Below are positions 41,184-45,326 of a DNA stretch of 64,000 bases, one piece after another; position 1 is the first letter of the stretch; the number at the start of each line of letters is the position of its first letter. Made by a program: the position numbers and the translations under genes. The stretch is from Stigmatella aurantiaca DW4/3-1 (lineage in GTDB: Bacteria > Myxococcota > Myxococcia > Myxococcales > Myxococcaceae). The notes below the pieces were generated by a model. That model was given only the letters and a program-made list of their open reading frames with translations, was not told the origin of the DNA and did not search any database. Location of the stretch: contig NC_014623.1 of the NCBI RefSeq assembly GCF_000165485.1, positions 372,001 to 436,000 on the forward strand, given 5' to 3'.

Positions 41184-41633
41184 ATGGGCGGAGTCGTCAA
41201 GGCAGTTGGTAACGCGGTTAGCAAGGTCGCTGAGACGGTTGGCAACGTGGCCGGCAAGGTCGCCGATGTGGCCAAGGGCGTTGTGAACATCGGCTCGCAG
41301 GTCCTCAACTTCGCCAGCCAGGGCCTCGGCGCCCTGACCCAGCCCATCAAGGACCTCGCGGGCGGCTTCCTGGACAAGCTCCCCCTGGGCCTGGGCAAGT
41401 TCCTGAAGCCCCTGGCCGATGGCCTCATCGACAACGCGGCCTCGTTCCTGTCCGGCCCCGTGAACGCCGGCCTGGGCCTGCTCAGCAAGGCGCTGCCCAC
41501 GGTGGGCAAGATCGCCGACTTCGCCAGCACCGTGAAGGGCGTGGCGGACCAGGTGGGCGCGCTGGCCAACCCCCTGGCGCAGCAGAACTTCGCCAACACG
41601 ATCGCCAGCGCCCACGCGCAGCACATCTTCTAG
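41184..41633 (+). CDS. Ala/Gly/Val-rich repetitive helical protein
   Basis: 149 aa. The first 60 residues repeat a V/A-x-x-V-A-x-x pattern (AVGNAVSKVAETVGNVAGKV; ADVAKGVVNIGSQVLNF), giving amphipathic helices like those of membrane-active or gas-vesicle/tail-like proteins; the remainder continues GLGALTQPIKDL, LLSKALPTVGKIADF and ends AHAQHIF. No signal peptide and no Cys. Function unknown. Followed by a strong terminator, so it is probably expressed at a high level from its own unit. Confidence 0.7.
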   Translation: MGGVVKAVGNAVSKVAETVGNVAGKVADVAKGVVNIGSQVLNFASQGLGALTQPIKDLAGGFLDKLPLGLGKFLKPLADGLIDNAASFLSGPVNAGLGLLSKALPTVGKIADFASTVKGVADQVGALANPLAQQNFANTIASAHAQHIF

Positions 41634-41748: not shown

Positions 41749-44700
41749 ATGGCCACCTACCCAGAGTCGCCCCGGGAAGCCTTCCAACAGCTGCGCTCCC
41801 TGTCGGAGCAGCTCGCCGAGCCCGCCCGCCGTCCCCAGGCCCTCGCCGATCTGAGGGCGCTGGCCGAGCTCGCCCGGGACAAGCCCGAGGGCGCCCCGCT
41901 GCGGCTCACCTCGGTGGTGGTGGCGGTGGGCTCCTCCCAGGCGCGGCTGGAGCTGCTCCTGCTTCCCTCCATCTTCGCCCCCGAGGCGTGGGCCCATACC
42001 TTCCTGGAGGGGCTGCTGAAGGTCCCCCTCGACGAGTATGCCGGCAAGCGGCTGGTGGAGGTGGGCTCCGGCTCGGGGTGGATCTGCCTGGCGTTGGCCC
42101 GGTTCACCCGGCTGGCCCATGTGCTCGGGGTGGATCTCAACCCCCACTCGGCCCCCCTGGCGTGGTGCAACGCCTGGCTCAACGGCGACGAGGCCCTGGT
42201 ATCGCGGCTGTCCTTTGGCGAGAGCGATCTGTTGCGCCAGGTGCCGGTCGGCGAGCCGTGGGACTTCGTGGTGGGGTGCATTCCGCAGGTGCTCCGGGGC
42301 GAAGGGCTGCCGGCGGAGGTCTCCCAGGCGGATGAACAGGCGCTCTACGACCTGTCCAACTACTGCGCGATCCAGAACGTCTACGAGGATCATTTCGGCC
42401 TGGGGCTCAACGCACGGTTGCTGGACGAGGCCCCCGAGCGCCTGTCCCCCGAGGGGCGGCTGTTGCTCAACCTCGCCGGACGGCCGGGACGGGCCATCAT
42501 CGAGCGCATGTTCACCCGGCGGGGCTTCACCACCTGGGTGCGGGTGGCCAAGCGGGTGATGCAAGCGGCGGACACGGACATCCGCCCGCTGGTGGTGCTG
42601 GAGCAGCGCACGCGGCGCGAGTTCGAGTTCTTCATGGATGCCCACAGCCCCGAGCCCCTCCGGGCGGCCACCGCCCTGGGGTGGCTCACGGCGGGCCACC
42701 CCATCTGGCACGAGGTGGCGGTGTGGGAGGCCCGGCTCGCGCTGCCCCGGGAGACGCTGGCGCTGCGGGCTGCCCTGCGCGAGCTGGGCGTGCCCGGGTT
42801 GCAGGAGGAGTTGGATCTGGCGAACGCCCCCCCGGAGCAGCTCGGCTTCGTGGCGGCGCTCACCGAGCGCCTGGCCCGCGCGCCCTTGCTGCCCTATGCG
42901 CACGAGTCCGGAGACCGCAGCCTGCGGCAGCTCGTGGCGCGCTACCTGGGACGCTTCTTCGACCTGCGGCTGTCCGAGGAGGAGATCTTCGTCGCGCCCG
43001 AGCGCGAGCAGGCGGTGTACTCGCTGCTGCTGTCCACCTGTGACGAGGGGGATGGCGTGCTGGTGTCCCACAACCTGCACGCCGTCTACGCGCCGGTGCT
43101 GGACAAGGCGGGGGTGCGCGTCACCGTGACCCACAACACGCTGGGGGAGATCCGGCAGTTGCTGAGCGCCTTCGACGTGAAGGTGGTGCTGCTGGCGGTG
43201 GAGCCCGGCGAGCGCGCGAGCATGGCCGAGCTGCGTGGCATCCTCGCGGAGGCGGAGCGGCGGGGCATCCTCGTGGTGCTCGACGAGAGCGCCTTCTTCA
43301 ACATCACCGCCGAGGTGGAGCCGCGCACGCTCTTCGAGTTCCTCGCCCGAGAGCCGCACCCCTCGCACCTGGTGGTGCTGTACGGGCTCATCAAGAACGC
43401 CGTCTTTCCGGACTGGGAGCTGACGCTGTTGTTGCCGGTGCCGGCGCCGCTGCGTGCGGGGCTGGAGGTGGCGGCGGAGGTGACGTACTCGCGCATCAGC
43501 ACGCTGGTGCAGTGGTTCTACGAGCGCACCTTCGCGGAGCTGCTCGCCTTCCGCATCGCCTTCGCCGAGCCGCAACCGCCTCCCGAGCGGGGCACGCCCC
43601 AGGTACCCCGCTCCCGGCGCATCGCGCGGCTGGAGGCCTTTTCCGCCTTCGCGCCCAAGGTCTTCCGCGAGGAGGACCGGGAGCGGATCCGGCTGGACTA
43701 CGGGGAGAACGAGTCCCCGCTGCCGCCCCCGCTGCTGGAGGGGTTGGTGGCGGCCTGCGCGGCGCCGCGGGATGCGGGAGACCAGCATGGGCTGGCGGAG
43801 GCGGTGGCGGCCTTCCTGCTGGAGACGCGAGGGGTGCGCTACGAGCCGGGGGAGATCACCCTGGCGCCCGGCGTATGGCCCTTGATGCACCACCTGGGCG
43901 TCGCGCTGCGCCGGTTGCTGGGGCGCGCGCCGCGCGTCTTCATCGCGAGGCCCTGCTACGGCGTGTTGCCACCCACGTGGGATGCCGTGGGGGCGGAGCT
44001 GGACCTGGCGCCGCTGAGCGCCCTGTCCGAGCGTCGGGGAGCGAACGCGCCAGACGTGGTGGTCATCTCCCAGCCGTCCAACCCCGTGGGCAACTACCTG
44101 TCCCACGAGGAACTGGTGGCGCTGGCGGCCTATGTGGTGGAGGAGCGGTGTTGGCTGGTGTCGGATGAGATCTTCGGGCTGGTGAACCTCAGCCATCCCA
44201 CGGCGGAGACGGTACACGGCCCGGTGGGGCTGGAGGCGACGGTGCCGGGCATCGGGGCGAGGACGGTGGTGCTCGGAGGCCTGTCCAAGGAGTTTGCCGC
44301 GGGAGGGCTGCGGGTCGGGTGGATGGCCACGCGGGACCGGGCGCTGACGGAGGCGGTGAAGCAGACCTCGCCCGGGGTGCTGCACCTGGCCACGGCCCGT
44401 GCGGCCGCGAGGCTGTACGTGGCGTACGCGCGAGGGCCGGACGGCAAGCTGCTCTACCCGGAACGGCACCAGGCACTGCGCGAGTTCCTGGCGCACATGA
44501 GAAGAGACCTGGCGGAGAAGCGGGCGTTGCTGGCCGAAGCCCTGCCAGAAGACGGACTGGGAGAAACCGTGCAGGCCGGGGGACTCTTCTTGGCGCCCCG
44601 GATGACATCTTGGTTGGGCCGGGAGGTGGACGGCGTGAAGTTGACCCGAGAGAACCTCCCGGCGGTGGTGTACGAGCACACACACGTGGTGCTCAACAGC

Positions 44701-44814
44701 GGGGAATGGTGTGGAGAGCCCGATCGGGTGCGTGCCGTGTTTTCGATTCCCCGCGAGACACTGGAACAAGCCCGGGAGCGGCTGAAGGCCTTCGCTCGGA
44801 AGCTGCGAGGGTGA
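41749..44814 (+). CDS. Plant-type methionine S-methyltransferase with aminotransferase domains
   Basis: 1021 aa, likely S-methylmethionine synthase. N-terminal class I methyltransferase (about 60-290): LPSIFAPEAWAHTFLEGL, motif I LVEVGSGSGWICLALA, VVGCIPQVL, LSNYCAIQNVYEDHFGLGL and QAADTDIRPLVVLEQ, blocks that I recall from plant MMT. Two PLP-fold segments follow: a degenerate one (about 330-610, YGLIKNAVFPDWELTLLLP) and a canonical one (about 640-1015) with ISQPSNPVGNYL, LVSDEIFG and GGLSKEFAAGGLRVGW, whose Lys847 should bind PLP. Plant enzymes, as I remember them, have lost this Lys. Whether the aminotransferase part is active or only regulatory is open. Start ATG 41749; stands alone after a terminator. 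Confidence 0.85.
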   Translation: MATYPESPREAFQQLRSLSEQLAEPARRPQALADLRALAELARDKPEGAPLRLTSVVVAVGSSQARLELLLLPSIFAPEAWAHTFLEGLLKVPLDEYAGKRLVEVGSGSGWICLALARFTRLAHVLGVDLNPHSAPLAWCNAWLNGDEALVSRLSFGESDLLRQVPVGEPWDFVVGCIPQVLRGEGLPAEVSQADEQALYDLSNYCAIQNVYEDHFGLGLNARLLDEAPERLSPEGRLLLNLAGRPGRAIIERMFTRRGFTTWVRVAKRVMQAADTDIRPLVVLEQRTRREFEFFMDAHSPEPLRAATALGWLTAGHPIWHEVAVWEARLALPRETLALRAALRELGVPGLQEELDLANAPPEQLGFVAALTERLARAPLLPYAHESGDRSLRQLVARYLGRFFDLRLSEEEIFVAPEREQAVYSLLLSTCDEGDGVLVSHNLHAVYAPVLDKAGVRVTVTHNTLGEIRQLLSAFDVKVVLLAVEPGERASMAELRGILAEAERRGILVVLDESAFFNITAEVEPRTLFEFLAREPHPSHLVVLYGLIKNAVFPDWELTLLLPVPAPLRAGLEVAAEVTYSRISTLVQWFYERTFAELLAFRIAFAEPQPPPERGTPQVPRSRRIARLEAFSAFAPKVFREEDRERIRLDYGENESPLPPPLLEGLVAACAAPRDAGDQHGLAEAVAAFLLETRGVRYEPGEITLAPGVWPLMHHLGVALRRLLGRAPRVFIARPCYGVLPPTWDAVGAELDLAPLSALSERRGANAPDVVVISQPSNPVGNYLSHEELVALAAYVVEERCWLVSDEIFGLVNLSHPTAETVHGPVGLEATVPGIGARTVVLGGLSKEFAAGGLRVGWMATRDRALTEAVKQTSPGVLHLATARAAARLYVAYARGPDGKLLYPERHQALREFLAHMRRDLAEKRALLAEALPEDGLGETVQAGGLFLAPRMTSWLGREVDGVKLTRENLPAVVYEHTHVVLNSGEWCGEPDRVRAVFSIPRETLEQARERLKAFARKLRG

Positions 44815-44888: not shown

Positions 44889-45326
44889 ATGCAATCACAA
44901 CCGAGTGAGCAGCTGATCCGGGTGGGCCAGTTGGAACTGCGCTTCTTCGTCGACGGCACCCACACCGATGGGCACTTCTCCATGGCGGAGATGCTCGTTC
45001 CACCGGGCGCGCGCGTTCCGCCTCCCCACTCTCACGGCGATGTCGACGAGACAGTCCACGTCCTCGAAGGGACGTTCACCTTCAGCGTTGGTGGCACCGT
45101 CCACGAGTTGCGTGCCGGCGAGCGCTGCTTCTCACCGCGCGGCCTCGTGCACCACTTCGCCAACCGGCACGACACGCCGGCCCGGATCCTCACCGTGTTC
45201 TCACCGGCCCTCATCGGACCGCAGTACTTTCGCGACATCGGCGACATCATCAACGCGGGCGGGCCGCCCGACTTCGCGAAAGTCCGCTCGGTGATGGAGC
45301 GGTACGGCCTCACGCTCGCGGCCTAG
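44889..45326 (+). CDS. Cupin-domain protein
   Basis: 145 aa single cupin. Motif 1 is PPPHSHGDVDETVHVLEGTF (G(x)5HxH(x)3,4E(x)6G with two of the usual His kept) and motif 2 GERCFSPRGLVHHFANRH. Suitable for a metal centre; such proteins are dioxygenases, isomerases or sugar/acid-binding enzymes. GAGAGGG precedes ATG 44889. It follows the methyltransferase by 74 nt on the same strand and might share its message; a link with sulfonium metabolism is only a thought, since DMSP-cleaving cupins exist. Confidence 0.85.
   Translation: MQSQPSEQLIRVGQLELRFFVDGTHTDGHFSMAEMLVPPGARVPPPHSHGDVDETVHVLEGTFTFSVGGTVHELRAGERCFSPRGLVHHFANRHDTPARILTVFSPALIGPQYFRDIGDIINAGGPPDFAKVRSVMERYGLTLAA

Follow-up and report, generated by a model that had tools for sequence, protein, structure and literature searches.

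Within a 64,000-nucleotide stretch of the Stigmatella aurantiaca DW4/3-1 genome (contig NC_014623.1, positions 372,001 to 436,000; hereafter the window), one gene encodes a 1021-residue Group III (plant-like) methionine S-methyltransferase (MMT) whose methyltransferase head is followed by two tandem domains of aminotransferase fold, the second of which carries a complete, conserved set of pyridoxal phosphate (PLP) site residues. We propose that the head would transfer a methyl group from S-adenosylmethionine (SAM) to methionine, giving S-methylmethionine (SMM), and that the tail may act on this head-made SMM by transamination, giving 4-dimethylsulfonio-2-oxobutyrate, at a PLP site to which both aminotransferase-type domains contribute. 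Taken as a whole, this scheme of a Group III MMT, SMM formation by the head, a composite PLP site and SMM transamination is a serious possibility that falls a little short of probable. The protein type is not new, as plant-like MMTs of bacteria have been published before (PMC9135737); the conserved complete PLP site and the tandem partner domain are the part of the find that is worth a bench test.

Plant and bacterial MMTs together form Group III in the classification of Peng 2022 (PMC9135737), and the sections of that paper cited here describe some Deltaproteobacteria and Oligoflexia as having an MMT that resembles the plant enzyme and shares its dual-domain structure. The window protein is like these enzymes in its MmtN-type head and long aminotransferase-type tail, and differs in that its tail resolves into two tandem aminotransferase domains with a complete PLP site. 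The same sections call the role of SMM in bacteria with a Group III MMT difficult to predict and report dimethylsulfoniopropionate (DMSP) from only one of the four Group III bacterial strains tested. The tie to DMSP production, drawn in an earlier annotation made from the letters of the window (the sequence-only reading), is not supported by that count.

The frame is open from the ATG at 41749 to the stop codon at 44812-44814, relatives align across its entire length, and most close relatives share its start point, beginning Met-Ala/Pro-Thr-Tyr-Pro; the full-length frame described by the sequence-only reading is therefore intact. The sequence blocks it had quoted are also present (LSNYC..ED-x-FGLGL, QAADTDI-x2-LV, VVLNSGEWCGEP, GGLSK847EF and GLR855VGW), with the correction that six residues rather than five separate LSNYC from ED. 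The best PDB sequence match of the protein was MmtN of Roseovarius (7vvv, E 1.6e-11, residues 79-333; profile E 2.7e-16). Similarly, when the full AlphaFold model (mean predicted local distance difference test score, pLDDT, 84.2; predicted template modelling score 0.74) was compared with known structures by Foldseek, MmtN (7vvw_A, E 7.2e-16, TMt 0.72) was the sole methyltransferase among the best 50 rows, the others being aminotransferases and 1-aminocyclopropane-1-carboxylate (ACC) synthases; this and the other fold comparisons speak for the best matches listed, and families beyond them are not excluded. MmtN, a Group I enzyme (7vvv/7vvw/7vvx) that has no tail, shares with the window protein the sequence and fold of the head, and the window protein's SAM loop, D129 and C177 align with the loop, D69 and C121 of MmtN, residues whose roles we take from the cited sections of PMC9135737. 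The region aligned to the MmtN SAM contacts S101/L102 differs in the window protein (SDLL). As judged from its family, the head would be expected to make SMM.

The C-terminal part is a fold-type-I aminotransferase domain by sequence and by predicted fold. Residues 617-1021 matched 6f77_A with Z 39.2 and a root-mean-square deviation (rmsd) of 2.5 over 370 residues, and the 50 rows listed were, to judge from their titles, aminotransferases or other PLP enzymes related to them. With an MmtN-type head in front of a PF00155 tail, the identification of the gene product as a bacterial counterpart of the plant MMT stands, and its 1021 residues agree with the roughly 115 kDa expected of a Group III enzyme. 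The Schiff-base Lys, N1 Asp, NP-motif Asn, phosphate Arg and carboxylate Arg are all present in the tail (K847, D806, N778, R855 and R995); by family knowledge, Asn778 is presumably the ligand of the PLP O3', Asp806 that of N1 and Arg855 that of the phosphate. Conservation was read from 82 proteins (60 distinct sequences) encoded at loci that cover all 60 MMT-positive genomes and the named contigs; one of these proteins is cut by a contig end and is missing residues 1-147. Lys847 and Arg855, the intact PLP lysine and the Arg of GLRVGW on which the sequence-only reading had laid weight, are each kept in all 60 distinct sequences. Phe809, Arg995 and Tyr737 are each kept in 59, and the exception every time, as for Asn778, is a single divergent locus (L057). 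Across seven spread sequences (L001, which is the window protein, L056, L058, L059, L060, L063 and L012; L057 left out), 10 of the 12 positions assigned to the PLP site on the pattern of the family were invariant, as against 98 of 375 positions across the domain (hypergeometric p 4e-5). These residues suggest that the tail binds PLP.

The sequence-only reading had spoken of one long aminotransferase-like tail. The aminotransferase type was borne out, but the single domain was not, as residues 301-625 are, on sequence and model grounds, a second, truncated aminotransferase domain, which would go unnamed or be assigned to the tail if MMT were described as having two domains. A separate model of this middle domain (pLDDT 80) matched 4r8d_A with Z 20.1 and rmsd 2.8 over 222 residues, the match ending after the large domain. 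The active site of an aminotransferase is completed by a Tyr that the partner subunit contributes. We take the place of Tyr383 in the middle domain to be that of Y70 of aspartate aminotransferase, the tyrosine that reaches into the active site of the partner subunit. At this place the tail is variable and has no conserved Tyr, whereas the middle domain has Tyr383 in 59 of the 60 sequences. The middle domain has no NP-motif Asn (by eye), and its own lysine, Lys549, is missing in two loci, L056 and L057. L056 (1532-4654, minus strand; 40% identity to the window protein) is divergent, and has lost Lys549 while keeping Tyr383 and the tail site. Because these residue losses are complementary, with Tyr383 in the middle domain only and a tail site that persists beside a middle domain stripped of its lysine, the data suggest that the middle and tail domains form one composite PLP site. 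In such a site the middle domain would serve as a built-in dimer partner that lends Tyr383 to the tail, where Lys847 would carry PLP as a Schiff base alongside Asp806, Asn778 and Arg855, and Arg995 would receive the substrate carboxylate. Fold-type-I aminotransferases (PF00155; 6f77, 1gd9, 1dju) share the fold of residues 617-1021 and most of the PLP residues; unlike them, the window protein is fused to a methyltransferase and a truncated partner domain, has Phe for Tyr225, and has a Y70-type Tyr in the middle domain only.

What becomes of the SMM bears on the function of the tail. A plant-type SMM cycle requires a homocysteine methyltransferase. Among 96 genomes of the family Myxococcaceae, to which the window genome belongs, the curated MmuM model was matched over its cut-off in 0 of the 57 MMT-positive genomes as compared with 9 of the 39 MMT-negative ones (Fisher p 1.6e-4, a value that ignores kinship, 7 of the 9 MmuM-positive genomes being of one genus). 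The window genome itself has one S-methyl_trans match, in a 1200-residue frame of MetH size. With MmuM over cut-off in none of the MMT-positive genomes of the family, an SMM cycle was not supported. The MmuM pattern therefore indicates that SMM probably goes elsewhere, the tail being the obvious candidate, and a fate of SMM other than recycling by MmuM is likely. To our knowledge, an enzyme for SMM transamination has been described only biochemically, in plants, and a 1997 study by Rhodes is said, by its title, to bear on the transamination step there. We prefer transamination because the best matches of the profile were aminotransferases and because an 'SMM transaminase-decarboxylase' has been proposed in plants, where it is named in the cited part of PMC5557254. 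Both SMM as the substrate of the tail and transamination as its reaction are proposals; transamination of SMM fits best, and a tail that releases dimethyl sulfide by elimination and a tail that is regulatory are live rivals.

One alternative is that the tail is a PLP enzyme for which the methylated sulfur is a leaving group, so that gamma-elimination of SMM or an ACC synthase-like cyclisation would free dimethyl sulfide. S-methylation does make sulfur a leaving group, as is generally known, and ACC synthase was the best PLP match in a single-sequence PDB search (1m4n, E 1.7e-10) and also matched strongly in fold (3piu, Z 35.1, rmsd 3.0 over 358); it shares PLP residues and a sulfonium substrate class with the window protein, and the NCBIfam matches lying far under cut-off include the PLP cyclases GntC and VioD. 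However, ACC synthase ranks under plain aminotransferases in the profile search, a specific ACC synthase signature is not shown in the window protein, and the tail itself has no conserved Tyr of the Y85 type. The fold-type-I families are moreover all close, and the reaction is not readable from the fold. We regard this route as quite unlikely.

That the tail is merely regulatory or structural, binding PLP or an amino-acid ligand and sensing, for example, SMM or methionine, while SMM formation is the sole chemistry of the protein, seems somewhat unlikely. The plant MMT is active although its tail appears to lack the lysine, and in L056 and L057 the middle domain persists after losing its own; conservation of Lys847 in every sequence, and of the other PLP residues in nearly every one, nevertheless goes beyond what a scaffold would need. 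The protein might also be bifunctional with other substrates: the tail might transaminate methionine or some other amino acid, or a different thioether might be methylated by the head. In fold, the middle domain comes near the methionine aminotransferase YbdL (1u08), among others, and the methionine contacts of MmtN are not clearly conserved in the head. The head is, however, specifically MmtN-like, and the cited sections of PMC9135737 class the Group III enzymes with proven methionine S-methyltransferases; we consider other substrates improbable.

Several observations, in addition to the kinship within the MmuM comparison, weigh against SMM transamination at a composite site. In ten of the 57 MMT-positive genomes, SMM could be recycled by an additional S-methyl_trans protein that scores lower (68-85 bits; cut-off 215). 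The MmtN methionine contacts E127, R132 and E250, as given in the same sections of PMC9135737, have no clear match or conservation at the aligned places of the window protein and its relatives, and the loop of residues 185-194 is of low confidence in the model. The case for the composite site is built on residues, and the tail could pair with another chain instead. The aminotransferase Tyr225 place is held by Phe809 in 59 of the 60 tails; a Tyr225 equivalent is usual in the family, and the fold and PLP binding do without it. Among the neighbour genes inspected, none indicates a pathway. L057 (6070-8991, minus strand; 43% identity to the window protein) has an open frame and retains K847, D806 and R855, but it shows N778D, F809A, R995H and Y383C, and its methyltransferase head is ruined: the SAM loop lacks its first Gly, and both the IPQV stretch and QAADTDI are gone. 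When L057 is included, the invariant PLP-site positions drop to 6 of 12. From its sequence, L057 looks like a decaying copy or one altered in function, and it indicates that the family can decay as a whole. An argument from L057 that the PLP half outlives the methyltransferase half was dropped, since its PLP site is altered too.

If SMM transamination by the tail is correct, a gene is assigned to the SMM transamination step; if the tail instead frees dimethyl sulfide, the protein is a new source of that compound in myxobacteria. The broadest form of the proposal is a one-protein pathway in myxobacteria, in which a composite site, formed by an inactive and an active aminotransferase domain of the one chain, would convert head-made SMM on the spot, giving the 2-oxo acid that leads towards DMSP-type compounds or releasing dimethyl sulfide, and in which plants, with the same protein, would have lost the second reaction; we consider this doubtful, though worth stating. 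The tail of the plant enzyme would then be what is left of a second catalytic half. For the role of SMM in Group III bacteria, a PLP site that is complete and conserved on the chain that also carries the methyltransferase offers a hypothesis testable on one purified protein.

The plant side of this comparison is used as a lead only. Against a provisional Arabidopsis MMT sequence, the window protein aligns over its full length, with identities of 108/296 (36%) in the head, 78/321 (24%) in the middle domain and 75/376 (20%) in the tail. The provisional sequence has Leu at the place of Lys847 and Lys at that of Arg855, and keeps the middle lysine; loss of the PLP lysine in the plant enzyme, which the sequence-only reading also presumed, is accordingly putative. 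The head of the provisional sequence is 27% identical to the MmtN fragment, near the approximately 30% stated in PMC9135737, but it too is treated as a lead. The literature searched is, as far as the parts consulted extend, silent on the PLP lysine of MMT; a remark on it may stand in Bourgis 1999 or Williams 2019, which lay outside that search.

Table. Features of the MMT gene, its product and the adjoining genes (positions in the window)
Feature	Position	Strand	Basis
Group III (plant-like) MMT gene, 1021 aa	41749..44814	+	Open frame; relatives over full length
MmtN-type class I methyltransferase head, residues 1-300	41749..42648	+	PDB sequence match and Foldseek
SAM-binding loop EVGSGSG, residues 104-110	42058..42078	+	Three Gly of GxGxG kept in 58/59 distinct sequences covering the loop
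Middle aminotransferase-type domain, large domain only, residues 301-625	42649..43623	+	PF00155 E 1.9e-5, 24.5 bits against cut-off 19.7
Tyr383, at the aminotransferase partner-subunit tyrosine place	42895..42897	+	Aligned with YAPPAGIPELRE motif of 1bjw; Tyr in 59/60
Lys549, middle domain's own lysine at the PLP-lysine place	43393..43395	+	Aligned with lysine of GAAKAFAMTGWRIG in 1bjw; kept in 58/60
Complete fold-type-I aminotransferase domain, residues 626-1021	43624..44811	+	PF00155 E 1.5e-26; 6f77_A fold match
Asn778, NP motif	44080..44082	+	59/60
Asp806	44164..44166	+	60/60
Lys847, Schiff-base lysine (predicted)	44287..44289	+	60/60 distinct sequences
Arg855 of GLRVGW	44311..44313	+	60/60
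149-aa protein directly upstream of MMT gene	41184-41633	+	No Pfam match at E 0.01
Cupin_2 gene downstream of MMT	44889-45326		Pfam match

The MMT gene is solitary in the window. The sequence-only reading was right that it is isolated, with a cupin gene next downstream. A link between the two genes was not supported: as a pathway partner the cupin was rejected, since it adjoins the MMT gene in 1 of 39 other loci, some of which end at contig boundaries, and is absent from 4 of 5 same-genus loci. No DMSP or methionine genes were recognised among the MMT neighbours inspected. The upstream 149-residue protein is 91-94% identical in the same-genus loci L082, L086 and L087. In several genera (L012, L014, L018 and others), genes for a PRMT-like methyltransferase and a WS/DGAT wax ester synthase (acyltransferase) lie about 2-5 kb downstream of MMT; they do not occur in the window. 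Each of these two clusters was found in 12 of 20 loci and has no clear functional link to MMT, and the clustering took in all open frames, some clusters being spurious frames.

The search of Myxococcota genomes that the sequence-only reading had proposed found relatives in 60 of 195, one match apiece at E 1e-60 or better, 57 of them in Myxococcaceae and 3 in other families of the same order. Nineteen named loci were found in GTDB contigs, from genera that include Myxococcus, Corallococcus, Pyxidicoccus and Citreicoccus, and full-length identity to the window protein ranged from 96% down to about 40%. A wider set of 290 genomes, 95 of them beyond the phylum set and apparently of other phyla, returned the same 60 matches at E 1e-25. 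No MMT was found in five further phylum sets, G285 (8 genomes), G208 (1), G211 (247), G212 (2) and G213 (111); Bdellovibrionota (Oligoflexia) lay outside the aim of the search, and absence there is not claimed. In the G211 set, 3 genomes gave four matches between them; each match fell on the tail part and lay in a frame of 384-403 residues. Plasmids held no MMT copy at E 1e-10, no copy was confirmed in viral contigs, and phage records gave partial, weak matches in 3. Pairwise ratios of nonsynonymous to synonymous substitution (dN/dS) were 0.06-0.31 in all three parts of the protein (10 pairs, dS being high in the wider ones). One contig titled 'Comamonas sp. KCTC 72670' (L015, BNCN01000002.1) bears a myxobacterial MMT gene, and its title looks mislabelled. 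The head of L056 carries a GEP-containing insertion that is absent from the other bacterial sequences shown and, as a lead, is also found in the provisional plant sequence.

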